Shown: positions 6,205 to 35,112 of the stretch, piece by piece
Numbering within the stretch: the first letter of the stretch is position 1
Layout of the letters: the number at the start of each line of letters is the position of its first letter
IMG/VR virus record: IMGVR_UViG_3300034082_004296
Location: 62,001-126,000 of that record
DNA: 64,000 bases
Direction: 5' to 3' (one strand)
Origin: a virus
The notes under the pieces: model-generated
What the model saw: the letters and a program-made list of their open reading frames with translations, nothing else
Told to the model about the DNA's origin: nothing
Databases searched by the model: none
Made by a program: the position numbers and the translations under genes

Positions 6205-8172
6205 ATGTCATATTTGTTAAATTATAAAAATTGGAGAGCACTATATGAAAGCCAAACTAATATTTTTGAAGATGGAGAAGACCCATACGGAGGAGTTGGT
6301 ATGATTGATGATACCAAAATCAAAGATAAAGGCACAGTTGATCCATTTGCAGACATGCCAAAAGAGGGCAAGAAAAGATTAGAGTATTTAGTAAATAAAG
6401 CAGGAGACCTAGATTCACAGGCGATAAAAAAGGCAGGAGCAGCGCCAGCAACTTCACTTCTACCCTACGATGCAATAACTGACTGGATGATTACTGCAGG
6501 TAAGCCTACTACAAGGAGCGATGGAAAAGGAGGATATAAAGATTTTTCACCAGAATGGAAGAAAAGATTTAAAGATAGAGAGCCTTCCATGAAATTAGAA
6601 GACTGTATTCAATGTATGCAGTATTGGAATGGAATAATTGATACGACTAAAACAAAAAAAGAAACTATTGAAATAAACGGTAAACCGTATGATGTTGCAA
6701 ATTATGACACTGCTCGAGTAATTAGACAATTGGATCAATTAAGTAATCTCAAAAAAGTTAAATCTTTAGTAGAAGAGGCATGGAAGGCTAAAGGCATTAT
6801 ATATTTTAATACTGGCTCGCCTTCAGAATATGAGTTTGAAGGAACTAAGTATTCTATTGAGAAAGACAAACAGGTAACATTTGACCCAAATTTAATCGTT
6901 GAAAAGAGTAAGATTTTACTAGAAAAAGCGAAAAAAACATTTGTAAACACTGGAAAAACCAGAAGAAATTCAAAGACTGATATGCTTTCTCCAAACCCCA
7001 ATTCAGATAATGTATGGTTTGATACAGGAGAGGGAGGAAAATATTATTCAAAGAAATCTAGAGATCAAACTGGAAGCTTTTGGCTATGGTATCAAATAAT
7101 ATCGGACGATGCTCAATTTCAAAAGTTATTAGCTAGATTCGATGATCCAACTTATGTGAGGACAGTATTCACAAAAATGACGGAGCAGGATAAGATAAAC
7201 ATAATAAAGGGTATTTCGGACGCTGCACAGAAGAAATTTGAGAAAGGATCAGTCGGAGCAATGGAAGGGATCTATGGCGCTACTTCCATCGTGTGGTGGC
7301 CGGTTGAAGCTAAAGAGACGATGCCAAAAACAACGGTCCTTAAACCAGCTAGTCCAGGAATTGACGTTGAATATGAAAATGAATGGGACTTTTCTTGGCC
7401 GTATGCTAAAGAAGGAGGAGTAGGAAAAGAACTTGCAATGACCTACTTTAAGAGTGATTCAGCAATAATACAAGATGGCAAGGACAAAGAGATAGACAAT
7501 GCAGTCAAGCAAATCATGGCTGAAATTAAGAGCAAAAATGGTACTCTTAAATCATTAAAGTATAGAGTAGTAGCATCGACGAGTGACGAACCTTCTAAAT
7601 ATGCAAGCCCTAATAAAGTAGCCGCAAAATACGATATTGCAAATAATCAACCTTTAGTTAGAGACCGTGCTAAGGTAATCGAAACTGCCCTAACTGCTGC
7701 GATCACTGCGAACGGAATTGATCCGACCCTGGTCACTAAAGACGGCGAAGACCTTACTCCTAATAATATTCTAGACGATGGAAGTGCAAAATACCAAGAG
7801 AAAAAATGGATGCGGCTTGATCATAAGGACCCTAGAGCAACGGCTGCTACTGATGCTGAATATAAAGCACTATTCGCTAAACCTAAACATTCAGGGCTTC
7901 TATTTAATATAGTATATACAACCATTGAAAAGGAAAAGAGTGAACCTACTCCTGAAGAAACGACCGTATCTGATTATGAGGTAGTAGGAGAATGGCTATT
8001 CGAGATCAAGTGGGCAGGCGGAGGAAGCTACAAGAAAAAGAGAAGAAGAACTCACACTAGAAGACCGATGAGGGGAATCCCTTGGGATAAATTGTTTCCG
8101 CCTCTTCCTGCAGGTGGAGGATGGAGCGTCGAAGACTTATGTGACGCATATGGTAGATCAGGACCAGGATAG
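6205..8172 (+). CDS. Putative virion protein with capsid-targeting-like N-terminus and OmpA-like segment, 655 aa
   Basis: The product is not recognised as a whole. The N-terminus, LLNYKNWRALYESQ, is almost the same as that of the 514-aa protein downstream and fits a prohead targeting/cleavage signal (aromatic pair followed by LYE, cleavage expected after Glu15). Near residues 410-515 there is an OmpA/MotB-like pattern: an acidic strand start (YFKSDSAIIQDG), the strand YRVVASTSDEPS, then N..LVRDRAKVIETALTAAI, the position where OmpA domains carry their N..LS..RA helix. The C-terminus is basic, with KKKRRRTHTRRP, which could contact DNA. A late promoter precedes it and a hairpin terminator follows at 8206, so it is a single-gene late unit. 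I infer a structural or co-packaged protein; the peptidoglycan-binding role typical of OmpA domains is not proven. Confidence 0.8.
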   Translation: MSYLLNYKNWRALYESQTNIFEDGEDPYGGVGMIDDTKIKDKGTVDPFADMPKEGKKRLEYLVNKAGDLDSQAIKKAGAAPATSLLPYDAITDWMITAGKPTTRSDGKGGYKDFSPEWKKRFKDREPSMKLEDCIQCMQYWNGIIDTTKTKKETIEINGKPYDVANYDTARVIRQLDQLSNLKKVKSLVEEAWKAKGIIYFNTGSPSEYEFEGTKYSIEKDKQVTFDPNLIVEKSKILLEKAKKTFVNTGKTRRNSKTDMLSPNPNSDNVWFDTGEGGKYYSKKSRDQTGSFWLWYQIISDDAQFQKLLARFDDPTYVRTVFTKMTEQDKINIIKGISDAAQKKFEKGSVGAMEGIYGATSIVWWPVEAKETMPKTTVLKPASPGIDVEYENEWDFSWPYAKEGGVGKELAMTYFKSDSAIIQDGKDKEIDNAVKQIMAEIKSKNGTLKSLKYRVVASTSDEPSKYASPNKVAAKYDIANNQPLVRDRAKVIETALTAAITANGIDPTLVTKDGEDLTPNNILDDGSAKYQEKKWMRLDHKDPRATAATDAEYKALFAKPKHSGLLFNIVYTTIEKEKSEPTPEETTVSDYEVVGEWLFEIKWAGGGSYKKKRRRTHTRRPMRGIPWDKLFPPLPAGGGWSVEDLCDAYGRSGPG

Positions 8173-8176
8173 AGGA

Positions 8177-8779
8177 TCACTCTATTCTGTTAGTTAATAA
8201 TAAAGTGGAAGATATTCGATATCTTCCATTTTTGTTTACATAGACCTTTTGATATACTCCACAAAAGGTAGCCTCCTTCTTTAATAGCTTTGAGTTATGA
8301 CCTGGAGACTCGATCCAATAATTTAGGACACACTGTGCAGCTAACTTAGGATCGACTATTTTGGATCCAATATTTTTAAGCCAAAGATCGCCAACTTTTT
8401 GTTTTGTAGGATCCTTAAATACCATTGGTCCAGCATTAAGACAGTTCTCAGCAATCATGCCGCCTGCTCCTAATTTTACGCCAAATCGTTCAACTCTTGT
8501 TTCAGGAGAGACTAGATTTTCAATAAGATGTAGTGAATCATAATTTCGCTCAAAGTGGCCTCCTTCATCGTATATAGACAGGTATTCGCAATGGTGTTCA
8601 CAAGCACGAGTCGCTTTAGAGTCTAGCTTAAGTGGATTGAGCCCATTTTTTTGACGATATTCATTTATGGCATCAAGTAGAAGAGTTGAGAATTCAGCCT
8701 CAGTAGTTAAAAGGTTTTTAGGAACTTGAGAAAAAGTGATCGTAGAGATCAATAGAAGGGTTAATGTTATTAATTTCAT
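8177..8779 (-). CDS. Secreted CAP-domain (SCP/PR-1/YkwD-like) protein
   Basis: A 200-aa secreted protein. I chose the ATG at 8779 because it begins a clean signal peptide (MKLITLTLLLISTITFSQ) and avoids overlap with the divergent gene at 8866; a start at 8935 is possible in frame but would bury the signal. The CAP fold signatures are LLDAINEYRQKNGLNPLKLD, HHCEYLS with HFERNYDS, AENCLNAG, NYWIESPGHNSKLL and ATFCGVY. The family includes secreted proteins of varied function, some binding lipids or acting as proteases. The gene lies antiparallel between two late genes, has its own promoter-like element (8801-8816), and its last codons form the terminator hairpin of the convergent gene. Signal peptides ending in SQ are common in Bacteroidota. 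The role during infection is unknown. Confidence 0.85.
   Translation of the reverse strand: MKLITLTLLLISTITFSQVPKNLLTTEAEFSTLLLDAINEYRQKNGLNPLKLDSKATRACEHHCEYLSIYDEGGHFERNYDSLHLIENLVSPETRVERFGVKLGAGGMIAENCLNAGPMVFKDPTKQKVGDLWLKNIGSKIVDPKLAAQCVLNYWIESPGHNSKLLKKEATFCGVYQKVYVNKNGRYRISSTLLLTNRIE
8206..8234 (+). terminator. Rho-independent terminator of the 655-aa gene, inside the CAP gene
   Basis: A 10-bp perfect stem, TGGAAGATAT / ATATCTTCCA, with a TCG loop is followed by TTTTTG. It lies 34 nt after the stop of the plus-strand gene and within the last codons of the convergent CAP gene (encoding GRYRISST), so one stretch serves both as coding sequence and terminator. Confidence 0.85.
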
Positions 8780-8800
8780 GGCTCTTACATTTACTGTGGA

Positions 8801-8816
8801 TATAGTTATAATACAA
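8801..8816 (-). promoter_or_regulatory. Promoter-like element of the first CAP gene
   Basis: On the minus strand this reads TTGTATTATAACTATA, 21 nt before the ATG at 8779. The second CAP gene has the same 16-mer with one mismatch at nearly the same distance (11011-11026). It differs from the late element and contains a TATTATA core, so an early or middle class promoter, or an operator, is likely. Confidence 0.55.
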
Positions 8817-8837
8817 TAAAAAGAGTCGGTTTTAAAA

Positions 8838-8850
8838 GATAAATAACTAA
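8838..8850 (+). promoter_or_regulatory. Late promoter (ATAAATAACTAAA type)
   Basis: GATAAATAACTAA lies with 19 nt between the ATAAATAA core and the ATG at 8866. It sits back to back with the CAP promoter element at 8801-8816, forming a compact divergent control region of about 90 bp. Confidence 0.8.
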
Positions 8851-8865
8851 AAAACTTATTTAAAA

Positions 8866-10410
8866 ATGGGTGGTTATTTATTAAATTATAACAAGTGGAG
8901 AGCTCTATATGAGTCAGCTCAACTAAATGAGGCAATTGAGATACCTGGATTTAATCTTAAACCGGTAGAAAAAGGAAATAAGCTAGTTTCTAGAGTTTCG
9001 TATCCATCACTTGGAATTAATCCAAAATACGATAATGAGCTAAATTCAATCATGACTAAAACAGTCGGTAAGGAGACAATTCCTAAGTTATTTGTAGTAA
9101 ATGGTAGTGAAGTTGATTCTCAGGCTGAATATCGAAAAATATTTACTGCGCTAGTTTATGGAGTGATCCAATATTTTGAAGATGATACATTAAAGGATAA
9201 GATCGATGATATTGCTCCACAACTTAAATTCACAACAACGATTTCAGGTAAAGTACAATTGTATGGTTCAAGTAGTGGAAGGATTAGTACACAAGGACAA
9301 ATTGTGGAACCGAATACTGGTGGGGCAGTCTATATTTCAAACACAGCTGACACTAAAGAGTCATCAGTAATCGGGATATGTAAATATATCAATGGATTTA
9401 ATTTACAGAATTGGATGACAGGTAATTTCCTACAGATAGATCCAACGAAGATTCTTGATCAAAACAATGTAACTGATTTAACTGGAGCGATGAGAGAGGC
9501 ATATGTTGAAGAACGAGGATTCTTACGATTAGTCAGTCCAGCAAGTGCAAGCATTACTGCTGGAGCAAGGGGTACTGAGACTGAAACTGTTCAAGGTGCA
9601 CAGGCGCAAACTGGTAATGCAGAGATTGCATTTACTGCTGGAAAATCAGATATTGATGATAAAGGAGTTAAAGTTGATGCAAATCACCCTAAAGTAAAAG
9701 AGATTGGTGACAAGATCATAGGGTATTTAGGAAACAATGGTGTAATTGATTCAATGACGTTAACCTCATCTGCAAGTCCAGAATATGGATCGATCCAAAA
9801 CGTTGCAGGCTGGGAAAAATCTTATCCTAAGGGGACTACTGGAACAGCTGATCCTGGTGCAGGAGCGGATGACGCTGGTAAAAACATGAAGCTTGCATAC
9901 GATCGAGGAGTCGTATTTAGTAATGCGTTATACGCTTATTTAGGAGGACATGTAAAACAAAATGCAATTGCCGTTTCTTGGAAGATCTCAACTGATGCTC
10001 CAGGAGGAGGAAAGAATATCACTTACTCAGTTGCTACTAAAAGTGAATCTCCACAAACAATCACAAAAACGACTTACCAAGGAGCAAAAGTATCTGTCAA
10101 AAATGAAGATAACTCAATCGTAGTCTATAAGATTACGTATGATGCGTCAGCAATTGCTAAAAATAAAGATGGACTTTTCACAAAAGAACGAATTGATTAT
10201 AATAAATTAAAAGTAGGTGATAAGATCATAGTATACGCTAAGGACATGAAGACTAAACTTGGAAAAGATGAAGATGAACCTGTCACAGTAAGTAAGGTTG
10301 AAGATAATAATGTTTACGTAAATTATAAAGAAAACACCGATATCTTGATACCTAAAGATAGATACATTAAACAAGTAGGAAAAGCTGAAAAGCAAGAAGC
10401 TGAAATCTAA
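8866..10410 (+). CDS. Putative virion protein with capsid-targeting-like N-terminus and OmpA-like domain, 514 aa
   Basis: The N-terminus YLLNYNKWRALYESAQ matches that of the 655-aa protein almost residue for residue although the rest differs; cleavage would be expected after Glu16 (LYE). Residues about 250-390 resemble an OmpA-like domain: IAFTAGKSDIDDKGVKVD (opening strand with acidic turn), IGDKIIGYLGNNG (helix), MTLTSSASPEYG (the strand that carries G-x-T/A-D in OmpA), then N.KLAYDRGVVFSNAL (the RA helix). The C-terminal 100 residues are lysine-rich with a beta-strand-rich, SH3-like appearance (KLKVGDKIIVYAKD). It has a late promoter upstream and a strong terminator at 10434, so it is another single-gene late unit. 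I infer a co-packaged or structural protein; the family is not recognised. Confidence 0.8.
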   Translation: MGGYLLNYNKWRALYESAQLNEAIEIPGFNLKPVEKGNKLVSRVSYPSLGINPKYDNELNSIMTKTVGKETIPKLFVVNGSEVDSQAEYRKIFTALVYGVIQYFEDDTLKDKIDDIAPQLKFTTTISGKVQLYGSSSGRISTQGQIVEPNTGGAVYISNTADTKESSVIGICKYINGFNLQNWMTGNFLQIDPTKILDQNNVTDLTGAMREAYVEERGFLRLVSPASASITAGARGTETETVQGAQAQTGNAEIAFTAGKSDIDDKGVKVDANHPKVKEIGDKIIGYLGNNGVIDSMTLTSSASPEYGSIQNVAGWEKSYPKGTTGTADPGAGADDAGKNMKLAYDRGVVFSNALYAYLGGHVKQNAIAVSWKISTDAPGGGKNITYSVATKSESPQTITKTTYQGAKVSVKNEDNSIVVYKITYDASAIAKNKDGLFTKERIDYNKLKVGDKIIVYAKDMKTKLGKDEDEPVTVSKVEDNNVYVNYKENTDILIPKDRYIKQVGKAEKQEAEI

Positions 10411-10433
10411 TCTTGACTTTAGATATTTGATAA

Positions 10434-10458
10434 GGGAGTCTAACGACTCCCTTTTTTT
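10434..10458 (+). terminator. Rho-independent terminator of the 514-aa gene
   Basis: GGGAGTC / GACTCCC with a TAAC loop is followed by seven T residues. It lies 24 nt after the stop at 10410 and overlaps the stop codon of the convergent second CAP gene. Confidence 0.9.
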
Positions 10459-10991
10459 GGCATTATATATACGTACCCATTAAATGTGGTCTTGCTCTTA
10501 TCTAGTGAATGAAATGTAGCATCAAACTTGATAGATTTATTTTTACGATCAATCAATATGATCGAAACAATAGTAGCTGCTTCGTCGTTGGGTCGAGAGA
10601 TAGCTGCCTCATGGGTAGAAGAGTGAATCCAACCCTGAACAGCTTTCTGTGCAAGCGCTTCAAGATCGATCTCACCGCGATCACTAATGATATTTGTAAA
10701 AAATGAACCTGACGTTTCGTATCTATATAAACACTCAGCATTGCTCCAATAACCTAGGCTATCTGAATGTCTCTGCATGGGCCGATTAAAATTTCCATAT
10801 GCTACTCTGGTACAAAACTTTCGCATCAGGGAGTCCTCAAATGCCATAAATGGAGAGAGGCTTTGTGTGATTCTATACTCATTAATCTTTTTCCAGATCA
10901 AACTATCAAGCTTAGTAGATTCGATTCTTTCTACTTGTGAAATCGAAGAGAATGAAAGTAATGCAAAAAATATTATTGCAATTGTTTTCAT
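10440..10991 (-). CDS. Secreted divergent CAP-domain-like protein
   Basis: A 183-aa protein with a clear signal peptide (MKTIAIIFFALLSFSSISQ). Behind it comes a CAP-like pattern: IWKKINEYRITQSLSPF (the N-R-L-P helix region), MQRHSDSLGYWSNAECLY (position of the H..N.AEN signature) and AVQGWIHSSTHEAAI (position of the W..SP.H signature). The cysteines and second histidine region are less conserved than in the CAP protein at 8177-8779, so it may have lost activity or diverged in target. It lies antiparallel to the surrounding late genes, with its own promoter-like element at 11011-11026. The two CAP genes probably arose by duplication or were acquired together. Confidence 0.75.
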   Translation of the reverse strand: MKTIAIIFFALLSFSSISQVERIESTKLDSLIWKKINEYRITQSLSPFMAFEDSLMRKFCTRVAYGNFNRPMQRHSDSLGYWSNAECLYRYETSGSFFTNIISDRGEIDLEALAQKAVQGWIHSSTHEAAISRPNDEAATIVSIILIDRKNKSIKFDATFHSLDKSKTTFNGYVYIMPKKGSR

Positions 10992-11010
10992 GGCTTTAAA
11001 TTTAATTGGT

Positions 11011-11026
11011 TATAGCTATAATACAA
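11011..11026 (-). promoter_or_regulatory. Promoter-like element of the second CAP gene
   Basis: On the minus strand this reads TTGTATTATAGCTATA, 19 nt before the ATG at 10991, matching the element of the first CAP gene at 15 of 16 positions. The surrounding leader is otherwise not the same, which points to conservation for function. Confidence 0.55.
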
Positions 11027-11046
11027 AAAATTATCGAAATAAAAAA

Positions 11047-11060
11047 GATAAATAATAAAA
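11047..11060 (+). promoter_or_regulatory. Late promoter (ATAAATAATAAAA variant)
   Basis: GATAAATAATAAAA lies with 17 nt between its ATAAATAA core and the ATG at 11073. It heads the three-gene block 11073-12717. Confidence 0.8.
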
Positions 11061-11072
11061 AATTAAATTGTA

Positions 11073-11306
11073 ATGGCAAATCCAGTTATGAACTACAACC
11101 AGTTTATGTCAGCATTCAAAAAAGCTGAAGCGGGATACCGTGGAAAAGCTAATGTTGCGGCTAACGATAGATCAGGTTCTATGAAGATCAATCAAGGTTT
11201 AGTTGAAGGTCCAGTTAAAGGAAAAGGAACTCCTCAACTTGATAAGTATACTAAACAATACATGACTACTGCAAAGAACAAGAGTGTAGTAGGTAAGAAG
11301 AAGTAA
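11073..11306 (+). CDS. Small basic late protein, 77 aa
   Basis: I do not recognise this protein. It is lysine-rich (ending NKSVVGKKK) and mostly polar. The N-terminus PVMNYNQFMSAFKKAE has the Y-x-x-F pair seen in the other candidate capsid-targeted proteins but lacks a clean (L/I)xE cleavage site. It is the first gene after a late promoter and is followed by two co-directional genes. A small basic protein made late could be a DNA-associated internal capsid protein, but this is only a guess. Confidence 0.75.
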   Translation: MANPVMNYNQFMSAFKKAEAGYRGKANVAANDRSGSMKINQGLVEGPVKGKGTPQLDKYTKQYMTTAKNKSVVGKKK

Positions 11307-11326
11307 TCAATAAAAATCTAGGACCA

Positions 11327-11584
11327 ATGAATAGAGCTATCATGAGATTTGAGCAATATGCTCTACTTGAAAAGAAGGGCGACCTTAAGAAGCTAGTAGG
11401 TAAGGACGAGGACGAAGAGCTTACGATAAATGATGCCAAGAAGATTGGGGTCAAGGTTGCTAACATGGAAGGAGAGGACAAGAAGAAATACGTTGGTATC
11501 ATCAACTTTTTAGGGGCTTCATGTAACATCTATAACGAGCTTTGGAAGAATTATAAACGAACGAGAGATCGTAAAAAAGACTAA
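11327..11584 (+). CDS. Small late protein with possible capsid-targeting N-terminus, 85 aa
   Basis: An unrecognised charged 85-aa protein, rich in Lys and Asp. The N-terminus IMRFEQYALLEKKGD has an aromatic pair three apart followed by LLE, fitting a gp21-type cleavage site after Glu15. The remainder (DDEELTINDAKKIGVKVAN and following) looks like a short helical or beta-hairpin domain. The stop overlaps the next start (TAATG at 11582-11586), which indicates translational coupling. Confidence 0.75.
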   Translation: MNRAIMRFEQYALLEKKGDLKKLVGKDEDEELTINDAKKIGVKVANMEGEDKKKYVGIINFLGASCNIYNELWKNYKRTRDRKKD

Positions 11585-12717
11585 TGGATAAAGTATTTGA
11601 AAAGGCGTATTCTGATGAGGCTAGCTCAAAGGATGGAGGTTTCATCTTTCAAGCAATCCTAAACTATGACCTGTCCTGGTCAATAGTCAATGGCGAGACT
11701 GCACTCGATCAAAAAAATATCCAAGGTTGGCTTAAGCAAGTAGATGTTTTTCCAGATATGCGGTTTGAAGAGGGCCATGCCACTCTTACCTATGTTATCT
11801 TAAGTGAAGTAAATCTACTTAAAAGAAAGTTTGAGCTTGCGAGCGAGGCAATCAAGAGATTACTTAATCCAGATTATGCTCGAGAAATGGACGGTTTACC
11901 TGCTGAAGTGACACCGGAAGAAGAGACACCAAAACCGGTCGAGACCGACATAACTGACGACGATTGGAACAATCTCTTACCATCTGGTCCAAATCCACCA
12001 TTGGGATTACCTGAGCCACAAAAGAGAATTGGTCAAGGCCAAGTAGCTTTGCCTTCGGGCCCATCTGCTCCACTAGGTCTTCCGCCAGCAACTTCTGAAT
12101 CAAGAGTAAATGAGGTTCTTTTTACTACAAAGTTGACTTCTGCTCAAATCAAGGCGATTAATGACAAGTACTTTAGCAACACTCACTATGAGGTAAGGTT
12201 CACAGTAGATCGAATGGTCCTACGTGAGGTCTCAACCAGTGGACTTGATACGGGTTCTCCCAATGTGACACTTAAACTTTCTACAGGTATGGTGGACACG
12301 CTTGATGGAAAAGCAATCAATAGCTGGGACGGATTTAAGGTAAAGGTATCGGGTAAAAACACTCTAATTAATAATGAGTCGCTGTTGATAGACAACACGA
12401 CTGAACCCAAGATCTCAGAAATAATGGTATATGACCCTATTGAAAACGTGAATGAACTTATCTTTAGGACTATCCTACCTTCTTTAGTATTGGAATTTAA
12501 GGGAGACCGTGTACAAATAGATAACTATTCAAACCGCTCTTCACAAGTATCTATACGATCTAACATTGATTTTGAAAACTTATTTAATATTGAGGAGGCA
12601 CCCGCCTCTGAGATAGTAGACACAGAAGAGGGAGAGGAACCTGAAGAGGAGAATACTGAAGAAACTCAGGAACCAACTACACCCGAACAAAATATTGCTC
12701 CAAAGCAAAATAAATAA
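11584..12717 (+). CDS. Late protein of unknown function, 377 aa
   Basis: I do not recognise this protein. An N-terminal helical region (to about residue 110) is followed by a Pro/Gly-rich linker containing the short repeat LPSGPNPPLGLPEP and LPSGPSAPLGLPPA, then a beta-rich domain (about 160-340) and a strongly acidic, Pro/Thr/Glu-rich tail. It is coupled to the 85-aa gene by TAATG and directly precedes the tail tube gene; the promoter for the tube gene overlaps its last codons. Position suggests a virion component, perhaps tail- or head-associated. Confidence 0.75.
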   Translation: MDKVFEKAYSDEASSKDGGFIFQAILNYDLSWSIVNGETALDQKNIQGWLKQVDVFPDMRFEEGHATLTYVILSEVNLLKRKFELASEAIKRLLNPDYAREMDGLPAEVTPEEETPKPVETDITDDDWNNLLPSGPNPPLGLPEPQKRIGQGQVALPSGPSAPLGLPPATSESRVNEVLFTTKLTSAQIKAINDKYFSNTHYEVRFTVDRMVLREVSTSGLDTGSPNVTLKLSTGMVDTLDGKAINSWDGFKVKVSGKNTLINNESLLIDNTTEPKISEIMVYDPIENVNELIFRTILPSLVLEFKGDRVQIDNYSNRSSQVSIRSNIDFENLFNIEEAPASEIVDTEEGEEPEEENTEETQEPTTPEQNIAPKQNK

Positions 12718-12723
12718 CTAAAA
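12709..12723 (+). promoter_or_regulatory. Late promoter (ATAAATAACTAAA type)
   Basis: AATAAATAACTAAAA overlaps the last codons and stop of the 377-aa gene and leaves 19 nt between its ATAAATAA core and the tail tube ATG at 12737. This adds an independent late start for the abundantly needed tube protein. Confidence 0.75.
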
Positions 12724-12736
12724 TAATCGATACACA

Positions 12737-13312
12737 ATGGCAGGTTTACCATATTGGACCAACTCAGTCGCAGCTCGAGAATACTACGAACCGATCTATA
12801 AGAATCAGTTTGAGGTGATCTTGAACCCACCGGCAGTAATCTCTGGTAGCAATGTAGCTCTTTTAGTGGAGCACGTGACCGAGATTTCAGGTCTGCCTGA
12901 AATAAATTCTAACGGGACTCTAGTTGAACAGTCTTACAAGTTCGCTAAAAGATCCTTTGCTGGAGGAATCCCAGACACTACAACTGCTGACTTAACTATT
13001 AAATTTACAGTCAACTTAAATGAAGAAAATGACGCATATGTCTATAATATCCTTAGGGCATGGAACGATATCGTTTACAATCCTCAAACGGGTAGTCAAG
13101 GACTAAAAAGAGACTATGTAGGTTCAATGTCAGTACACGTTGCAAACAAGACTGGTGAGATCTTTAGAGAATGGAACTTTCCAGTGATCATTCCAAATGA
13201 TAAACTGACTGAACTCTCTTTAAATTACACTGAAAATGGAATCTATGACGTAACGATGAAATATAGAGCAGACTACTGGGTTGAAACTAGAGTAGGTCAG
13301 ATTAACGTATAA
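12737..13312 (+). CDS. 19: Tail tube protein (T4 gp19-like)
   Basis: A 191-aa protein with the features of contractile-tail tube proteins: NQFEVILNPPA at the N-terminus, VEHVTEISGLPEI (the conserved strand and loop of gp19-like proteins), RSFAGGIPDTTTADLTIKF, a central YVYNILRAWNDIVYNPQTG helix and the closing strands TELSLNYTENGIYDVTMKY. T4 gp19 is 163 aa, so this is slightly longer. It polymerises as hexameric rings forming the inner tube of the tail. It has its own late promoter, consistent with a high copy number. The sheath protein is encoded separately at 26660. Confidence 0.85.
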   Translation: MAGLPYWTNSVAAREYYEPIYKNQFEVILNPPAVISGSNVALLVEHVTEISGLPEINSNGTLVEQSYKFAKRSFAGGIPDTTTADLTIKFTVNLNEENDAYVYNILRAWNDIVYNPQTGSQGLKRDYVGSMSVHVANKTGEIFREWNFPVIIPNDKLTELSLNYTENGIYDVTMKYRADYWVETRVGQINV

Positions 13313-13327
13313 AAAATCGAGATAAAA

Positions 13328-14032
13328 ATGGAAATGTTTAACACACATCGTCGAGATATCCTAAATTTCGATAACTATATGGATCTTAAGAAACCAGGAT
13401 TCGGAGGACCTAAATCTGCAATCGAATTACGGGATGCTCGAGGTAATATGAATGATCGCGATCCTAAACTTAAAGGATTTAGACGAACTGTTGAGAGAGA
13501 CCCTGCTTTTTCTCACCCTGTATACGACCCTACGTACAAGGCAATGACTGGCGATCTTGTTTATCGACAAGAAAAAAAGAAGCCGTTTACGTATGATGAT
13601 CGAATCACTGGAATTCCAGTTGTAGAGATCGAACCAGTAGAAGAGGGAAGAGCCTATTCTTCATTTACCCGATTCATTAATGAAGAAGTAGAAGATGAGT
13701 TAGAAGACGAATTGGATGCTGAATTAGAAGATGAGTTAGAAGATGAGTTAGAAGACAATCAATATGCTGAATTAGAAAATGATTATGAAGAGAGTGACTC
13801 AGATGATTGGAACGAAGATGAATATCGTCAGGAGGCAACTGCTTTCAATAATACTATGTCAGACCTGCGTAGCATAGAGGCTATGCTTCGAGGATTTGAA
13901 AACGGAGAAAACTTTGATGATGAAGAGGAAGACTTTGGTACAAACCCATTAGAAGACGAGGAGAGTCCGTTTGGAGAGATACCCGACTGGGTAAAGGAGC
14001 TTCAAGCTCCAGAAGATTCTGAAGGATATTAA
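13328..14032 (+). CDS. Acidic late protein with Glu/Asp/Leu repeats and internal SFTRFINEE motif, 234 aa
   Basis: I do not recognise a family. Residues 1-110 are basic to neutral (with LNFDNYMDLKK near the start); SSFTRFINEE at 111-120 has the same F-x-x-F-I-N-E core that begins two other proteins of this phage; a low-complexity acidic run of ED-E-L-type repeats follows (about 121-145), and the C-terminal half stays strongly acidic. An internal I-N-E before an acidic tail could be a prohead protease site, so a scaffold or core protein processed during head maturation is one reading. The gene follows the tail tube gene by 15 nt and ends at a terminator. Confidence 0.75.
   Translation: MEMFNTHRRDILNFDNYMDLKKPGFGGPKSAIELRDARGNMNDRDPKLKGFRRTVERDPAFSHPVYDPTYKAMTGDLVYRQEKKKPFTYDDRITGIPVVEIEPVEEGRAYSSFTRFINEEVEDELEDELDAELEDELEDELEDNQYAELENDYEESDSDDWNEDEYRQEATAFNNTMSDLRSIEAMLRGFENGENFDDEEEDFGTNPLEDEESPFGEIPDWVKELQAPEDSEGY
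13691..13756 (+). repeat. Short tandem coding repeat (GATGAGTTAGAA-like units)
   Basis: The unit GAAGATGAGTTA or close variants recurs about five times in tandem, encoding E-D-E-L-type residues in the acidic protein. Some units are identical at the DNA level, which suggests recent slippage expansion. Confidence 0.8.
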
Positions 14033-14035
14033 TCG

Positions 14036-14064
14036 AAAACCTCATAGCAATATGAGGTTTTTTG
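14036..14064 (+). terminator. Rho-independent terminator of the tail tube unit
   Basis: AACCTCATA / TATGAGGTT with a GCAA loop is followed by TTTTG and more T residues, just after the acidic protein's stop. It ends immediately before the convergent minus-strand gene stop at 14067. Confidence 0.9.
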
Positions 14065-14066
14065 TT

Positions 14067-14465: not shown

Positions 14466-14466
14466 T

Positions 14467-26572: not shown

Positions 26573-26630
26573 TAAAACGAGCCGAGGATCTTAATTTTTC
26601 TATTTTTTTAGATTTATTGATGCTATTTAA

Positions 26631-26645: not shown

Positions 26646-26659
26646 ATATCTATACAGAG

Positions 26660-29600: not shown

Positions 29601-29851
29601 CAAGATTGAGAGTAAGAACGATTGTTGAAAATTATTTGAACGCAGTAGTTAATGCACAAGGACTTTCTACATATGAAGTAATCTTTGATACTTCAAATAA
29701 TACAAACGAGGTAATTTCTGCAAATGCGGCAATTATTGATATCCGAGTAGATTTCCCAAGAGGAATCCAAAAGTTCATCAACCGAATCACTATTACAAGA
29801 GTCGGAGGAACATTAAGTTCGGATTCAACTGGATTTATTCCAAGCTTCTAA
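26660..29851 (+). CDS. 18: Tail sheath protein (T4 gp18-like), enlarged
   Basis: A 1063-aa contractile tail sheath subunit; T4 gp18 is 659 aa. The N-terminus (SSGVYTVEIDASENVVLP then GRLIVGSSRVGPFN) and C-terminal domain (FGIILFSNNTAYQRINSALN, RDIEKILFNFLFDFND, DIRVDFPRGIQKFINRI) are sheath-family features. The middle carries extra domains. One, at about residues 374-450, has the pattern GTGYTTATG ... GGGTGLTVDI ... AGTGYEVGDTVTITGG, a glycine-rich beta domain also present in the 1813-aa protein of this phage. Its codons are more GC-rich than the flanks, suggesting insertion. Further beta-rich insertions (to about 700) would decorate the outside of the tail. A late promoter precedes it and a strong terminator follows, so it is a one-gene unit. 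Confidence 0.92.
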   Translation: MAEPRINLNNYKSSGVYTVEIDASENVVLPLTTGRLIVGSSRVGPFNTVVLINDIRTLRAVFGEIDPKLEKAGSYFHRTIEVALREGPVFAMNVLPLDTEIATPSLNLDQAAFTTFNTESASKNEGVNQYPMVEFFNRQRLWFADAAKVNKSKNLALGDDYITNPGGFGITTSESNKVLSFANLGQYNMTVWVRKANVTGFDVTAKEWYASVGGGNVEFPSFVHPDDFISDYFVEVIVVNGDWTNYLKLSKDPIYKAYFDEVGLKTANSANFFALREITVINRTIGCLIPDFRDQSGVTVSIDRLVNRAFPTTGLICALDAEKLDLIDLTDDNFIDTEVPTHRVDIIGHGFDELAYYADDGGFDNVYVGGVSTFTRNNLGTGYTTATGVATTSAGGGTGLTVDITALAGAITAVTVNNAGTGYEVGDTVTITGGAIPEVLTITAVTYLNPGVAATPLIDTISYKKPVDAELIFEITSTETEPSFLLNAAAGDTYIINAATDYLIAVQGSKMYEAYANGFLKTGDISSNGGLNPNRYLKVIDNLTVTVGPTTLKYIKIEVYANLGLTTLVNENTYTVSGTNYLKVTLDDGDDFKNTFDLTDTNFFASYSISQPNVLTLELDGAITVQNKALVNKYIKANNYIKATVTDGRARLLKIVSVLTPNPLTAPDTIKVTTMAPTVEEVIGLDVTGNEIQVYLGIPNFVSSLKGQILTGFKLRNDLLPDGTAERLEGTGGILDYLFTDTLIPQALANGEMVDFRYVVDSYSGTISSSSKYHLAKLAALNGQAMAILNAPSMQQFERSVDPSFINTTTRLVSTEYISQGGNAALNPSFLYKFAEEDVKGVPLSSYASYHFPNLIVRSGSKNVSVPQAGYISNLYVRKFKNGTPFLIVAGGKRGALNDPEIVGLEYDLTDEDRDFLEPVGFNLTVKRRGFGIILFSNNTAYQRINSALNNAHVRDNLSTIERDIEKILFNFLFDFNDEITRLRVRTIVENYLNAVVNAQGLSTYEVIFDTSNNTNEVISANAAIIDIRVDFPRGIQKFINRITITRVGGTLSSDSTGFIPSF

Positions 29852-29870
29852 TTAGATTTAGATATATTAG

Positions 29871-29896
29871 AAAGGAGGCGACTAGCCTCCTTTTTT
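29871..29896 (+). terminator. Rho-independent terminator of the tail sheath gene
   Basis: GGAGGC / GCCTCC with a GACTA loop, flanked by AAA and a run of six T residues, about 20 nt after the sheath stop codon. Confidence 0.9.
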
Positions 29897-29902
29897 ATTT
29901 TA

Positions 29903-29918
29903 GATAAATAAGAATAAA
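29903..29918 (+). promoter_or_regulatory. Late promoter (GATAAATAAGAATAAA variant)
   Basis: It starts 7 nt after the sheath terminator, with 14 nt between the ATAAATAA core and the ATG of the M15 peptidase at 29926; the closest core-to-start spacing among the convincing copies. Confidence 0.75.
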
Positions 29919-29925
29919 GATTATT

Positions 29926-30393
29926 ATGAAATTAAGCGAACACTTATCATTGGCTGAAGTAACTCGAAGTGAGACTGCAAAGAGGAGAGGAATTTCCAAT
30001 ATGCCTACTGAAGCACATATTACAAATTTTAAGTTACTTGCAGAAAAGGTTTTTGAGCCGATTAGAAAACATTTTGGAAAACCGATTCACATTTCTTCTG
30101 GTTATAGATCAGAGGCTTTAAATAAAGCAATTGGCGGATCATTGACTTCTCAACATTGTAGCGGAGAGGCAATTGATATTGACATGGATGGGGGTGCAAA
30201 TGGCATCACAAATAAAATGGTTTTTGACTATATTAAGGATAATCTTCAATTTGACCAATTGATTTGGGAATTCGGGACAGATTCTGCTCCAGATTGGGTA
30301 CACGTTTCTTATGAATCTACTGGAAAACAACGTAAGCAGATTCTAAAAGCTATTAAAAAAGGAGGAGCGACTAGCTACATACCTTACAAATAA
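29926..30393 (+). CDS. M15-family D-Ala-D-Ala carboxypeptidase-like peptidase (candidate endolysin)
   Basis: A 155-aa zinc peptidase of the M15_3 type. Motifs: HISSGYRSEALNKAIGG (55-71), SQHCSGEAIDIDMD with zinc ligands His77 and Asp84, and DWVHVSYE with His126. There is no signal peptide or membrane helix. Enzymes of this type cut peptide cross-links in peptidoglycan and serve as endolysins or tail-associated lysins in phages. It has its own late promoter and lies after the sheath gene; timing and context favour an endolysin for lysis. No holin-like gene is adjacent, so export may need a holin encoded elsewhere. Confidence 0.88.
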   Translation: MKLSEHLSLAEVTRSETAKRRGISNMPTEAHITNFKLLAEKVFEPIRKHFGKPIHISSGYRSEALNKAIGGSLTSQHCSGEAIDIDMDGGANGITNKMVFDYIKDNLQFDQLIWEFGTDSAPDWVHVSYESTGKQRKQILKAIKKGGATSYIPYK

Positions 30394-30421
30394 AAAAGAG
30401 GAGCTAACTGCTCCTCTTTTT
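30393..30421. terminator. Bidirectional terminator between the M15 peptidase and GroES genes
   Basis: AAAAAGAGGAGC / GCTCCTCTTTTT with a TAACT loop gives a GC-containing stem with A residues on one side and T residues on the other, so it can end transcripts from both converging genes. Confidence 0.9.
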
Positions 30422-30423
30422 AT

Positions 30424-30723
30424 CTATTCAAATTCTTCTAGAGAGATATCGTTAGGGTCATCTAAGATTGCGATAATCTCATTTGCCATTATGACATAGT
30501 GTTTTTCTCCTTTGTATGTTAGCTCTAATCCAGCATAACGATTAAAAAGGATTTGATCTCCAGGCTTAACCACCATCTCGTTGTGTTTAGTACCGTCTCC
30601 AGTATTAACAACAATTCCGATATTTGGTTTTTTGACTGCTTTTTCAGGAAGCATAATTCCTTGACTCGTGCGAGTCTCCTTTTGTTTAGGTTTAACTAAT
30701 ACTCTTTCGTATAGAGGTTTCAT
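30424..30723 (-). CDS. groES: GroES-like co-chaperonin
   Basis: A 99-aa co-chaperonin. KPLYERVLVKPKQKE at the N-terminus, the mobile loop with TSQGIMLPEK, then GIVVNTGDGTKHNEMVVKPG and ILFNRYAGLELTYKGEKHYV are all typical of GroES, and the conserved GIMLP resembles the bacterial I-V-L tripeptide that docks on GroEL. T4 gp31 is a diverged GroES analogue, while this one looks much more bacterial. It partners the phage's own GroEL (39936-41561) or the host's. Its start overlaps the RNase H stop (ATGA), and it ends at a bidirectional terminator. Confidence 0.93.
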   Translation of the reverse strand: MKPLYERVLVKPKQKETRTSQGIMLPEKAVKKPNIGIVVNTGDGTKHNEMVVKPGDQILFNRYAGLELTYKGEKHYVIMANEIIAILDDPNDISLEEFE

Positions 30724-31859
30724 AATGATGATAGGTTATTTTTTAAGTTAGTGAATTCCCTAAAATTAAAGCGCGTGATAGAGTAGTCATTAAAGAAATC
30801 TACTAGAGATTCTCTGATCTCATCTGGAAAAACTTTAATAGAAAGACGAGTTAACCTAATGTTAAATAATAGGTGTTCTCTGATCTCATCTATTTTATCC
30901 TGATCCTTAATCTTATTGATTGTTTGTATCTCCTCGACCACTCCAGAAATGACTGACTCATTTAGCTCATCTAGTAGAGATATAAAGCTTTCTCCAAACT
31001 TATTATACACTGCAGCAATTACTTTTTTGGCTTTTGCTGGAGACACGCTAGTTATTTTTGGGATATTATCAGACTTATCACCTAATAATATCTTACTTAG
31101 GACGTCCTCGACAAGATCTACTTTATACTCAACATAGTCTTTGCTTGCTAAATTTGAGATGGTCTTTTCTATGGTTGCTCCAGTAATGTGCACATCGCTT
31201 AAGGAAAAGAAGTTATCTATCTCCTCATTCGCTGCAGTAGGAACAAGCTGAGTGGGAACAAATAGCCTCTTGGTTTTGGCCATTTGTTTAGGTGTGATAA
31301 GTAGCACGTTTTTGTTCGGTGTACCCGTCAACTGTTTTAGATCCTGATCTACTGAGTATATCAGGATATCGTCGCTAATTATGTCACACAGATATGCAAT
31401 GATGTCATCACCTTCAGTACCTTTAAATTTATATTGATTTATTCCAGCACGATCAACCAATTGAGGCATTAGTATGTGCTGAAAATAATCAAAGAAAAGA
31501 TACTGATGATCGTCATATTTACGGTTTCCCTTATACTTAAATTCAGTAGGCGCAGAAGAAGTCTTGAAGTCAGAGTTTTTGAAAAACTCATTCGTATATT
31601 CTTTTCTCCAACTTGTTGAATCAAACACGATATGCACCCTTTCTGGGTGAGAGGAAATCGGTGTGATTAGGGAATTTAAGTAGGTAAAACAGAAATTTCT
31701 AAAGGTTACTCTTACGTGGTCCTTTAGCATGAATCCATCATCATTAAATAGATCATTAACATAGTATGCGTCACCAGTTCTCTTGTCTTTTGCTGACAAT
31801 GACTTGGTGACGCTTATTGCGACATTAATAAAGGCGTTCCCGTCTATGATTAAGTCCAT
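30720..31859 (-). CDS. rnh: 5'-3' exonuclease / RNase H (T4 Rnh, FEN family)
   Basis: A 379-aa FEN-type nuclease. Metal-binding motifs: LIIDGNAFI (Asp6), VHIVFDSTSWRK, KGTEGDDIIAYLCD, YSVDQDLKQLTG and LLGDKSDNIPKI, the last being the helix-hairpin-helix entry seen in FEN nucleases. In T4 the homologous RNase H removes RNA primers from lagging-strand fragments. The length is greater than T4 Rnh (305 aa). It is translated in one unit with the GroES gene downstream (4-nt overlap) and lies near the SSB gene, as in T4 where rnh and 32 belong to the same functional group. Confidence 0.9.
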   Translation of the reverse strand: MDLIIDGNAFINVAISVTKSLSAKDKRTGDAYYVNDLFNDDGFMLKDHVRVTFRNFCFTYLNSLITPISSHPERVHIVFDSTSWRKEYTNEFFKNSDFKTSSAPTEFKYKGNRKYDDHQYLFFDYFQHILMPQLVDRAGINQYKFKGTEGDDIIAYLCDIISDDILIYSVDQDLKQLTGTPNKNVLLITPKQMAKTKRLFVPTQLVPTAANEEIDNFFSLSDVHITGATIEKTISNLASKDYVEYKVDLVEDVLSKILLGDKSDNIPKITSVSPAKAKKVIAAVYNKFGESFISLLDELNESVISGVVEEIQTINKIKDQDKIDEIREHLLFNIRLTRLSIKVFPDEIRESLVDFFNDYSITRFNFREFTNLKNNLSSL

Positions 31860-31868
31860 GTTAACTTT

Positions 31869-32156
31869 TTAATTTTTATCTTGTGATTCGTTTTTCTCGC
31901 TAGTCTTACGGATTGCTCGAATGGCTGCAGAAAGAGTCTCAGATTCTAATAAATTAAATCCTCCTTTTGCTTGTGAGTAATTAGCAGATGCGATTAGGAC
32001 AAATAGCGCTTGACTGATATTCATTGTGCTGATAAAATCTTCATAAGCATTATCGTCAGCATAGGTAATTGTTCCAAATAGGATGTTTTGAGTAGCCTCA
32101 GTCGTTTGAGTTTTCTCTTTTTCAAGAGTTACTTGTGATTCTTTATTTTCTTCCAT
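31869..32156 (-). CDS. Hypothetical protein, 95 aa
   Basis: An unrecognised small protein with charged ends (Glu/Gln/Lys-rich N-terminus, SEKNESQDKN C-terminus) and a central helical part ISQALFVLIASANYSQAKGG. It sits 14 nt after the SSB gene and just before the RNase H gene. In T4 the gene between SSB and RNase H is dsbA, a small DNA-binding protein, so the position is comparable, but I cannot show homology. Confidence 0.7.
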   Translation of the reverse strand: MEENKESQVTLEKEKTQTTEATQNILFGTITYADDNAYEDFISTMNISQALFVLIASANYSQAKGGFNLLESETLSAAIRAIRKTSEKNESQDKN

Positions 32157-32170
32157 GGTAATAGGTTATT

Positions 32171-33202
32171 TTAAAGATTTGAGAATAGAGAATCATATTC
32201 ATCGTCAGAGTCAGTCGAAGAAACGGATTCAGATTCGATTGCTGTTTCTAAATCAAGTGAAGCAGGTTTAGCTGGAGTACTTGAAAACTCTAGATCATCA
32301 TTAACACTGGCTTTAGGGGCGTTTGATTTTCCAGGTTTCATTTTAGAACGAATTAATTCATTCATTTTAGTATCCTTACTTCTTTCAAGAATCATCTCCA
32401 ATACTTCTCTTTGAGGAACTGCTGCAATAATAGCTTCCGCTACTTTAGTGAAAGTTTCTTCTGTCCAATCTTGGTGAAAATATTCATCCATTTTTGGAGT
32501 ATTTTTTGTCATGAACTCGGTTACAAGCTTAACTGATTTTTCATCATTTTTAACCTGTACTTGAGTATCACCGATTTTAAATACTAGTGGAGTAACTTCA
32601 TCCATGAATTTACACTTAGACCAATCTCTAAAATCTTTGGTTTTTTTACCAACAACACAAAGAAGATCTTTTCCTTCAAGTAGGTGATAAGGATTTACTT
32701 TTTTACTAGTTGAAAATCCATCAAGCTCTTCAGGATTTACTAATTGGTCAATAAGCATTCCAATTTGATTTCTAAACTTGAAGATTTTAATAGTTCCTTC
32801 AAGATCAGGTCTTTGTGGATCTTTCTTGATGTAAACAGCTGAGTGATTAGTACTCCATCGTGAGAAGTTTCTACCAATTTCTTCAGCGATTTCAGGTTCC
32901 TCTTTTTTCAAAGATCTTAGAACTGATTCCATTGTCCAAAGGATTGAAGGTTTTTCAACATTCGATGGACAGTCAATAATTAAGGATTCCTTAGTTAAAG
33001 GATTCCAAAATTTAGCAGTGTACTTTGTGTACTTGCTTTTTGTTTTGTCAAACACATACGGAATAAATCGGAAAACTGACTTATACGAACCGTTGTGCGC
33101 ATTTGGATCCGGATCATACACGTTCGGATCTACTTTTTTACTGCCACCAGCCTGAGGTTTCTTTGTGAATCCGTCTTCTGGTAAATCAAAAAAATCTGTC
33201 AT
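32171..33202 (-). CDS. 32: Single-stranded DNA-binding protein (T4 gp32-like)
   Basis: A 343-aa SSB. The start was placed at the ATG at 33202 (MTDFFDLPEDGFTKKPQ); an in-frame ATG 75 nt further upstream would add hydrophobic residues unlike an SSB. The core with YKSVFRFIPYVFDK, KYTAKFWNPLTKESLIIDCP and VYIKKDPQRPDLEGTIKIF resembles the gp32 OB-fold. The C-terminus is acidic (SVSSTDSDDEYDSLFSNL), as in SSBs that recruit partners. I do not see the zinc-binding Cys/His cluster of T4 gp32. It acts with UvsX, the polymerase and helicase. The leader is AT-rich (33203-33254) and a terminator for the upstream gene lies just before it. Confidence 0.85.
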   Translation of the reverse strand: MTDFFDLPEDGFTKKPQAGGSKKVDPNVYDPDPNAHNGSYKSVFRFIPYVFDKTKSKYTKYTAKFWNPLTKESLIIDCPSNVEKPSILWTMESVLRSLKKEEPEIAEEIGRNFSRWSTNHSAVYIKKDPQRPDLEGTIKIFKFRNQIGMLIDQLVNPEELDGFSTSKKVNPYHLLEGKDLLCVVGKKTKDFRDWSKCKFMDEVTPLVFKIGDTQVQVKNDEKSVKLVTEFMTKNTPKMDEYFHQDWTEETFTKVAEAIIAAVPQREVLEMILERSKDTKMNELIRSKMKPGKSNAPKASVNDDLEFSSTPAKPASLDLETAIESESVSSTDSDDEYDSLFSNL

Positions 33203-33254
33203 AATTTTTGTTGTTATTTTTATATTCTTGTACTGGTAATCCGATAAAAGTTTT

Positions 33255-33288
33255 AAAAAAAACAAAAAATGCCTCAAAAAGAGGCATT
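33255..33288 (-). terminator. Rho-independent terminator (minus strand) of the histone-like gene
   Basis: On the minus strand AATGCCTC / GAGGCATT with a TTTTT loop is followed by a run of T residues (TTTTTTGTTTTTTTT). It lies 24 nt beyond the stop of the 89-aa gene and separates it from the SSB gene. Confidence 0.85.
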
Positions 33289-33311
33289 TTCCGGTTTATA
33301 GGTTTAGGAGT

Positions 33312-33581
33312 TTACTTAGCTGAAATCTCGTCAGTTAGAACTTGGCGAAGGTTTTTTGCTCCTTCTTGAATCTTAGTCATTTCAGCTTTAACCATTGGAT
33401 GCTTGATTGCTTTTCTAATCTCTTGCATTTTCTTTTTAAGTCTGTTTCCAGCGCTTTTTACGCCTTTTCCATAATACTTATCAGCATCGTCTTCTGCTGA
33501 AGATACAAGAGAAACAATCGGTTCGAATATTGCAGCCTGTGCTGATGCAATTTCCGCTTTTAATTTTTCAAAATCGTTCAT
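33312..33581 (-). CDS. Histone H1-like DNA-binding protein (Bacteroidota type)
   Basis: An 89-aa basic helical protein. DADKYYGKGVKSAGNRLKKK followed by MQEIRKAIKH matches the pattern of the small histone H1-like proteins found in Bacteroidota (acidic/aromatic turn, K-G-x-x-x-A-G-x-R-x-R/K-K). It would bind and compact DNA or influence transcription, possibly of the host nucleoid. It is a single-gene unit with a TATAAT-type element upstream (33600-33609) and its own terminator. The family assignment comes from the motif alone. Confidence 0.65.
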   Translation of the reverse strand: MNDFEKLKAEIASAQAAIFEPIVSLVSSAEDDADKYYGKGVKSAGNRLKKKMQEIRKAIKHPMVKAEMTKIQEGAKNLRQVLTDEISAK

Positions 33582-33599
33582 ATTTAATACTTTTTATAG

Positions 33600-33609
33600 T
33601 ATTATACTA
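33600..33609 (-). promoter_or_regulatory. Candidate promoter -10 (TAGTATAATA) for the histone-like gene
   Basis: The minus strand reads TAGTATAATA, containing TATAAT, 19 nt before the ATG at 33581. It is the same 10-mer at the same distance as before the gp56-like gene (26563-26572), which suggests an early or middle promoter class distinct from the late one. Confidence 0.4.
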
Positions 33610-33627
33610 GATATTGAGTATTGGTTT

Positions 33628-34377
33628 TTATATTGAATTAACTATATGATCTACTTTGCTTGAGAAAGTAGCGTCTGGATATAGTTCTAGAGCTCGAGTA
33701 ACCCATACTTCCATGACATGATCGTATTCTGACTCACTCATGTAATTAGATTCAATAAAAGGCAGGAGATAATCGTCAAAAACTTGATCGATTGGACAGT
33801 TTTGCTCCTTTGAGCTATAGTACATTCCTTCAATCATTGATTCTATCTCGTCCATCAATAGAAAGTAACGATAACTCTTTTTAGCTCCTTCCCTTTTGTG
33901 TTTACTGCTAACCTGAGAATTAAAAGGCGAGCGGTTCATTCCTAACTGATCTAGGTGATTTGTTTCGTGTGATAAAATATCAATTAGTCGATAGTGTAAT
34001 TTACTATATAGGATCGGCTCTTCTCTAGGATTTAGGATAATATGAACTATTATTTTTGGAACAGCTACTGTAGATCTACTCATTCTAGTATTAGCGTCTA
34101 TACTGTATCCAAGTTTATCAAAGTTTATCTTTTCCCAAGGAAGACCCTCAAAGTGACTGTCTTCTTCTAAGTCAGGTGAAGAGTCTCTACGAACATTTAG
34201 GATCAAATCAAAGGTAAATGGTTCAATAAATTCCATTCCAGAAAAAACAGAATACTCTGTGCTCTCACCTGTAGGTGAAGTACGAATCTTTGTGATTAGA
34301 GTTTGAGCCAATCTTTTGATAAACTCTTCCTTGCTATCCACGTTTTCATTTATGAATTGATTGAAAGACTTAATCAT
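33628..34377 (-). CDS. Putative HExxH metalloprotein with capsid-targeting-like N-terminus, 249 aa
   Basis: The N-terminus MIKSFNQFINENVD closely resembles T4 capsid-targeting sequences of the M-K-T-Y-Q-E-F-I-x-E type, with I-N-E ending at Glu11 as the expected prohead protease site. HETNH at 137-141 in DILSHETNHLDQLG is an HExxH zinc-metallopeptidase motif; DEIESMIEGMYY about 30 residues downstream could give the third ligand. The rest is not assigned to a family. It is the last gene of a three-gene cassette (35112 to 33628) that begins with a late promoter on the minus strand, and all three members carry the same kind of N-terminus. I infer a protease-like protein packaged in the head, possibly injected with DNA; activity is unproven. 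Confidence 0.75.
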   Translation of the reverse strand: MIKSFNQFINENVDSKEEFIKRLAQTLITKIRTSPTGESTEYSVFSGMEFIEPFTFDLILNVRRDSSPDLEEDSHFEGLPWEKINFDKLGYSIDANTRMSRSTVAVPKIIVHIILNPREEPILYSKLHYRLIDILSHETNHLDQLGMNRSPFNSQVSSKHKREGAKKSYRYFLLMDEIESMIEGMYYSSKEQNCPIDQVFDDYLLPFIESNYMSESEYDHVMEVWVTRALELYPDATFSSKVDHIVNSI

Positions 34378-34889
34378 TATCTTTTATGTTTTACAAAAGT
34401 CACCTCTATTTCATCAGTAGTAGGAGTACCGTTTGAAAAAACAACAGTAACATCTGGTAATTTCTTAGCAATTAGGTTGGCTGAAACTGCATTCTTTAAC
34501 TTTTCAATAAATTGAAGATCATCGCTTGAAATATTTGTACGATCTCCCTTGATTATGTCTTCTAAACTCTTTTGACGAATCTCTATCTCCGGCTTATTTA
34601 GGTCATTCTTATCTGAAGAAATAACGTTTTCTTTGATCCAGGCCTGCAACTTGTCCTTTTTAATTGAATAACAAGGATACTCTACCACAACGCTACCGTC
34701 TGGATATTTTCTACGAGTTGTACCAGCATCTTCTGGCCCAGTCATGAATATAAACTTATACTCTACTGGCTTTGCGCCTGGTGCACCGGGTGTTCCTGGA
34801 GCAGGCGGTGCCCCTGGCATCATTGGCGGGGCTGCCATATCTTGCTCAAATAAAAAATCAGAATATTTTTTGATGTGTTTATTTTTCAT
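34377..34889 (-). CDS. Putative virion cargo protein with Pro/Ala/Gly linker, 170 aa
   Basis: I start it at the ATG at 34889 (MKNKHIKKYSDFLFEQDM), inside the end of the upstream gene; an in-frame ATG at 34916 is possible but adds nine basic residues. The N-terminus has Y-x-x-F followed by L-F-E (cleavage after Glu15 expected). A Met/Pro/Ala/Gly-rich stretch (AAPPMMPGAPPAPGTPGAPG) connects to a globular domain of about 130 residues with no known family. The stop overlaps the start of the metalloprotein gene, so the two are coupled. Confidence 0.7.
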   Translation of the reverse strand: MKNKHIKKYSDFLFEQDMAAPPMMPGAPPAPGTPGAPGAKPVEYKFIFMTGPEDAGTTRRKYPDGSVVVEYPCYSIKKDKLQAWIKENVISSDKNDLNKPEIEIRQKSLEDIIKGDRTNISSDDLQFIEKLKNAVSANLIAKKLPDVTVVFSNGTPTTDEIEVTFVKHKR

Positions 34890-35112
34890 CTTTGTTAGAA
34901 TCTTTCTTTTTTTCAATAATCACCCCTCCACGTTCCTTCCACATTCCTCGATTTATTTGAATATCTTTATTTTTACCATCTATTGTGATCGCGCCATCTT
35001 TTACTCTTTTGACTTGATATCGCGTTCCCATCCAGCGAATGGTGTCCCCTTTTTCAATAGATTCAAATTCATTGTCCTTGCTCTCGTTTATGAACTGGTT
35101 GAAATTAAGCAT
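34879..35112 (-). CDS. Small late protein with capsid-targeting-like N-terminus, 77 aa
   Basis: The N-terminus MLNFNQFINESKD is nearly the same as that of the metalloprotein two genes downstream (F-N-Q-F-I-N-E), followed by a small beta-rich domain (GDTIRWMGTRYQVKRVKDG and VIIEKKK) resembling an SH3 or KOW-like barrel and a basic tail. It is first in the minus-strand cassette and has the late promoter (35121-35137) directly upstream. The function is unknown. Confidence 0.75.
   Translation of the reverse strand: MLNFNQFINESKDNEFESIEKGDTIRWMGTRYQVKRVKDGAITIDGKNKDIQINRGMWKERGGVIIEKKKDSNKDEK

Follow-up and report, generated by a model that had tools for sequence, protein, structure and literature searches.

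Probable capsid-targeting tags on many unrelated proteins in a clade of T4-like phages

Why should proteins that otherwise have nothing in common begin with the same short pattern of residues? A 64,000-nucleotide stretch of viral DNA (the window), bases 62001-126000 of the 176,210-base IMG/VR virus record IMGVR_UViG_3300034082_004296 (G000), raises this question. Several of its genes start with an N-terminal tag in which two aromatic residues three apart are followed by [LI]xE. A sequence-only reading of the window had likened these starts to the capsid-targeting sequence (CTS) of T4 and proposed that seven or eight late proteins are loaded into the prohead and processed there. Judged by the markers looked for, the record is a T4-like myovirus: it encodes a Gp23-type capsid protein (PF07068), and the window encodes T4-like replication, sheath and late sigma proteins, among them UvsX (phrog_97), a gp18-type sheath (phrog_34521 and phrog_23) and a gp55-like late sigma factor, the expected reader of late promoters (47555..47953, plus strand; phrog_234, E 1.1e-19).

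An N-terminal tag in excess of chance

We searched for [FYW]xx[FYW]x(0-2)[LIV]xE within the first 25 residues after the start, over the whole record, whose genes, and hence starts, were predicted with a simple codon-score caller. Of the 201 genes of G000, 24 carry the tag; internal windows of the same proteins would give 2.2 and shuffled sequences 1.9 (maximum 7 in 1000). The exact T4 layout, [FYW]xx[FYW][LIV]xE, is found 12 times against 1.1 expected. As the motif was first spotted in the window, independent tests come only from counts outside it and in relatives. In the remaining 112 kb, to which the sequence-only reading had no access, 17 of 139 genes are tagged (1.7 expected). The genome search proposed by the sequence-only reading thus replaces its seven or eight members with some 20-25 per genome. 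They fall into two spacing classes, Phi-x-x-Phi-L-x-E and Phi-x-x-W-x-x-L-x-E (e.g., Y-x-x-W-x-x-L-x-E).

The excess recurs in most other records of the clade, for instance in G004 (13/153 versus 1.7 expected) and G001 (20/151 versus 2.6), G011 being the exception (3/68 versus 1.4), and in the more distant members G014 (270 kb; 24/265 versus 2.8) and G016 (207 kb; 19/214 versus 2.5). Among the other genomes compared, several of which were sampled in part only, tags are likewise in excess in the 636-kb phage LR756504 (15/167 versus 3.7) and in LR756500 (6/97 versus 1.2). There is no excess in MaF61 (2/168 versus 1.7) or in the 124 kb examined of PTm1 (1/140 versus 1.4), and no tag in the 50 kb examined of Lak-A1 (0/73). 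The marine T4-like phages HTVC008M (2/180 versus 1.2) and syn9 (97 kb; 3/106 versus 0.4) have few. In the positive control, 99 kb of T4, the search returned exactly the internal proteins IPII and IPIII.

The proteins behind the tags are largely unrelated, as had been proposed. When 937 genes from eight records were clustered by residues 31 onward, 54 body families contained at least one tagged member, a few of them accidental, and hhalign found no relation between the bodies of two window proteins, 6205 and 8866 (probability 0.1%).

Could the similarity be accidental, or compositional, as amphipathic N-terminal helices might make it? A motif this short should match by chance about twice per genome. 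In line with this, some two to three of the matches in G000 are counted as accidental, among them UvsX (G000:83395) and a type II topoisomerase-like subunit identified by eye (G000:61837). For the set as a whole, a tenfold excess out of sample, the lack of any excess in several related genomes analysed alike and a tag that stays invariant across orthologs make chance an extremely improbable explanation.

Conserved tags, late-type promoters and modular leaders

All the peptides quoted by the sequence-only reading were found at their genes. Six proteins of the window carry the tag at the N-terminus, a seventh has a conserved internal copy, and an eighth candidate falls away. Conservation is clearest in an HExxH (zincin-like) protein (33628-34377, minus strand) with the tag MIKSFNQFINE (34345..34377), ending at E11. 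In its family of 25 sequences (orthologs 52%-87% identical), S4, F5, F8, I9, N10 and E11 are invariant or nearly so, and the tag Glu is present in 25/25. The two residues that separate the aromatics vary, as does the linker after the tag; entropy is 0.53 in the tag versus ∼1.65 in linker columns 12-46. An AlphaFold model of the protein is confident (mean pLDDT 86.7) apart from its first ten residues (59). The protein is kept in ∼40 viral contigs, and a fold search of the PDB gave no significant match.

Two more tagged genes lie in the same minus-strand cassette. The 170-aa protein 34377-34889 starts with MKNKHIKKYSDFLFE (34845..34889; E15 counted from the ATG at 34889), kept in 6/6 family members, and the 77-aa protein 34879-35112 with MLNFNQFINE (35083..35112; E10), kept in 4/4. 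On the plus strand, the 655-aa protein 6205-8172 bears the Y-x-x-W-x-x-L-x-E variant MSYLLNYKNWRALYE (6205..6249; predicted cut after E15), and its G001 ortholog has the same tag. The 514-aa protein 8866-10410 begins with MGGYLLNYNKWRALYE (8866..8913; predicted cut after E16), a leader that also fronts an unrelated 589-aa body in G006; the phage collection yielded no protein relatives for 8866 or 34879. The 85-aa protein 11327-11584 carries MNRAIMRFEQYALLE (11327..11371; E15), and the motif is kept in the orthologs listed, although this is less decisive because residues past the tag are equally conserved. The internal copy, FTRFINE, occupies residues 113-119 (13664..13684, plus strand) of the acidic protein 13328-14032, just ahead of its acidic tail, and is retained in nearly all of 29 distinct orthologs listed. 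The 77-aa protein 11073..11306 (plus strand), which starts with MANPVMNYNQFMSAF (MNYNQFMSAF), shows the two aromatics across most of its orthologs, yet [LIV]xE in none, and we do not count it as tagged.

The sequence-only reading had placed all of these genes behind late promoters, a claim that sequence patterns broadly support. A T4-late-like ATAAATAA lies ∼15-30 nt upstream of 6205 (AATAAATAAC, 6179..6188, plus strand), 8866 (GATAAATAAC, 8838..8847, plus strand), 11073 and the minus-strand cassette begun at 35112 (GATAAATAAT, 35128..35137, minus strand), inside which 34377 and 33628 sit downstream; immediately ahead of 11327 and 13328 no such motif was detected. More broadly, TAAATA occurs in the 100 bases before 19/29 tagged and 16/26 structural genes and before 4/26 early genes, the latter two sets being of our own choosing. 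The enriched form is ATAAATAA, whereas the exact consensus TATAAATA precedes 0/29 tagged genes. This enrichment would fit late expression of the tagged genes. Promoter and leader also form a module. Genes 16122 and 17304 have unrelated bodies, yet the late-promoter-like GATAAATAACTAAAAA precedes both and their leader DNA is identical over ATGTCAAATATTTTAAATTTTAAGAATTGGCT; promoter and leader have thus been copied between them as a DNA module.

A second N-terminal module of ∼45 residues (MSFINWGHESPEQ...FEQ...AAA) was observed outside the window in four proteins (G000:2757, 3348, 14327 and 59641). Their bodies have no detectable similarity, and one of the genes is just downstream of the capsid gene; the module is possibly another docking module.

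Few cargo functions can be proposed beyond the domains found, which comprise a phage lysozyme (PF18013) at G000:11511 with a tag that departs from the pattern at its first aromatic, a peptidoglycan-binding PG_binding_1 domain in the tagged protein 36236, a NUDIX hydrolase (168117) and DUF5824 (134302). The first two are related to the cell envelope and could suit a tail. Together with the late-type promoter motifs, they would fit an N-terminal helix that docks proteins, without cleavage, to another late assembly such as the baseplate, the neck or a membrane assembly site. The strong conservation of the protease-consensus Glu in the 33628 family and the match to IPII and IPIII of T4 weigh against this explanation, which we consider very unlikely.

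A prohead protease fused to a scaffold of tag-like repeats

If the tags are processed in the head, a suitable protease should be encoded in the genome, and the sequence-only reading had stated that the absence of a gp21-like enzyme would refute its proposal. An S77/gp21-like prohead protease domain (PF03420; E 1.2e-12, over the cut-off) is indeed encoded by this record, at G000:55503-55952 and so ∼6 kb ahead of the window, and also matches the head maturation protease phrog_207 (E 3.9e-34). It forms the front of a 658-aa protein (G000:55509-57485) that continues into a scaffold-like part holding eleven tandem 14-residue units, xSIxYxEYLAExLN, of the type NSIKYQNYLAEELD. The layout of these repeats, Y-x-x-Y-[LVI]-x-E, is that of the tag. 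In 178 units drawn from 17 sequences, Y/F/H always fills position 1 and Y/H always position 4, position 5 is L/V/I/M, and position 7 is Glu in 88%. At least four exact repeat copies are present in a protein at 84 of the 87 clade loci, the other three being cut inside the gene. Eleven exact copies occur in the scaffold of LR756504 and again in that of LR745206; in PTm1, MaF61 and Lak-A1, related protease-scaffold proteins were found without such repeats. Tag excess thus co-occurs with scaffold repeats in the few lineages compared. A matrix built from the repeats alone picks out 13 N-termini at score 6, compared with 3.6 expected. In an AlphaFold model of the protease-scaffold the repeats are helical at low confidence (mean pLDDT 51.6), and we did not use it as evidence. 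A 115-aa protein of LR756504 (145806-146153) has three motif copies, two of them 14 residues apart, and resembles a short piece of scaffold.

The closest known counterpart is the CTS of T4, borne by IPI-IPIII and Alt and processed by gp21. Both are N-terminal stretches of 10-16 residues with aromatics three apart and then [LI]xE, both stand before unrelated bodies, and in both cases the genome encodes an S77 protease. Internal proteins of T-even phages likewise have only the leader in common (PMC3012670, PMC12373910). In the T4 CTS, residues 4 and 7 serve targeting and residues 8 and 10 processing (PMC9026906), positions that fit the conserved columns of the clade tags. The clade differs in having ∼20-25 tagged genes per genome where T4 has a handful, in its two spacing variants, and in a scaffold fused to the protease and carrying tandem tag-like repeats, which T4 gp22 lacks. 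The giant phages SPN3US and phiKZ offer a parallel, with removable N-terminal propeptides on many inner-head proteins that are cut after a short Glu-ending motif; several of those propeptides exceed 100 residues, the cleavage motif is another one, and no gp22 counterpart has been confirmed (PMC5694885). Tenacibaculum phage PTm1 encodes a related S77 protease-scaffold fusion, gp300 (prohead core scaffolding protein and protease), that has no YxxYLxE repeats, in a genome without tag excess in the part examined.

Recurrence on unrelated proteins, short conserved islands and a protease-scaffold with the motif in tandem all favor the interpretation first offered for the window. The tags are probably T4-type capsid-targeting and processing tags, used on an unusually large scale (∼20-25 proteins per genome, ∼50 unrelated bodies across the clade). 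Late genes would produce cargo whose leader helix, Phi-x-x-Phi-x(0-2)-[LIV]-x-E, docks onto the core of the prohead, most likely at the scaffold or next to it. The S77 protease at the front of the scaffold would then cut after [LIV]-x-E, freeing the cargo within the head and taking the scaffold apart, and part of the cargo may be carried into the next host.

Alternatively, the tags may be prohead-protease sites (propeptides) only, with other parts of the proteins targeting the head and tags and repeats alike because they are substrates of one enzyme. Both do end in [LIV]xE, the scaffold contains five further [LIV]NE sites, and in T4 gp23 a stretch of like layout, FGSFLTE, stops at residue 65, the known end of its propeptide (length from PMC9026906). 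On the other hand, the aromatic pair of the repeats is at least as conserved as their Glu, and the aromatic positions of T4 serve targeting (PMC9026906). Candidate [IVL]FE sites near the N-terminus of the capsid protein, which are candidates only, have no aromatic pair; the capsid protein offers several [LIV]xE candidates and no single cleavage site could be fixed. We therefore judge a purely proteolytic role unlikely, albeit less so than docking to another assembly.

Within the capsid-targeting interpretation, the scaffold is proposed as the receptor because tags and repeats share a layout and co-occur in a few lineages, and docking through resemblance to the repeats is plausible. Several observations weigh against it. 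T4 uses its CTS without repeats in gp22, so repeats are dispensable for targeting in general, which weakens the proposal. Tags favor F..F and I/V/L-N-E whereas repeats favor Y..Y and L/V-A-E, and their likeness could therefore stem from recognition by one protease or from amphipathic helices of a generic kind. Repeat-matrix scores of N-termini are unshifted overall (Mann-Whitney P 0.14), the difference being in the upper tail only. LR745206 has repeats yet 1/51 tags in 50 kb (1.8 expected), LR756500 has tags with degenerate repeats, and the co-occurrence itself comes from few, partly sampled lineages. A bolder version, which we advance tentatively and hold to be somewhat short of an even chance, is that the scaffold is a tandem polymer of the targeting tag: cargo would enter the core by imitating one repeat, the same kind of cut would dismantle the scaffold and release the cargo, and a promoter-plus-leader cassette would let the phage freely add head-packaged proteins.

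From sequence alone, the tags yield a catalogue of proteins that are probably packaged in the head and possibly injected. It covers lysozyme-like, peptidoglycan-binding, NUDIX and HExxH proteins besides many unknowns, from a phage group that is widespread and for the most part uncultured. The long-standing question of the binding partner of the T4 capsid targeting sequence in the core also becomes testable, a scaffold of tag-like repeats being a concrete candidate receptor.

Neighboring genes and probable host

On the strand opposite to the tagged genes 6205 and 8866, and between them, lies a gene for a CAP-domain protein (PF00188) with a possible secretion signal (window 8177-8779, minus strand). 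The window further encodes a formamidopyrimidine-DNA glycosylase-like repair protein (5343-6143, minus strand; PF01149) and a SET-domain protein, unusual in phage (37131-37496, minus strand; PF00856, E 9.6e-12).

The annotated relatives of the phage are distant: uncultured megaphages, Prevotella Lak phages, Sphingomonas phage PAU, Tenacibaculum phages PTm1 and pT24 and Flavobacterium phage MaF61. Annotated phages gave no DNA-level relative for window 1-12000. The record also encodes a ribosomal protein bS21 (G000:167942-168130; PF01165), whose gene immediately precedes the tagged NUDIX gene at 168117. The host is probably a member of the Bacteroidetes, since the bS21 gene recalls the lake Bacteroidetes phages of PMC9723584.

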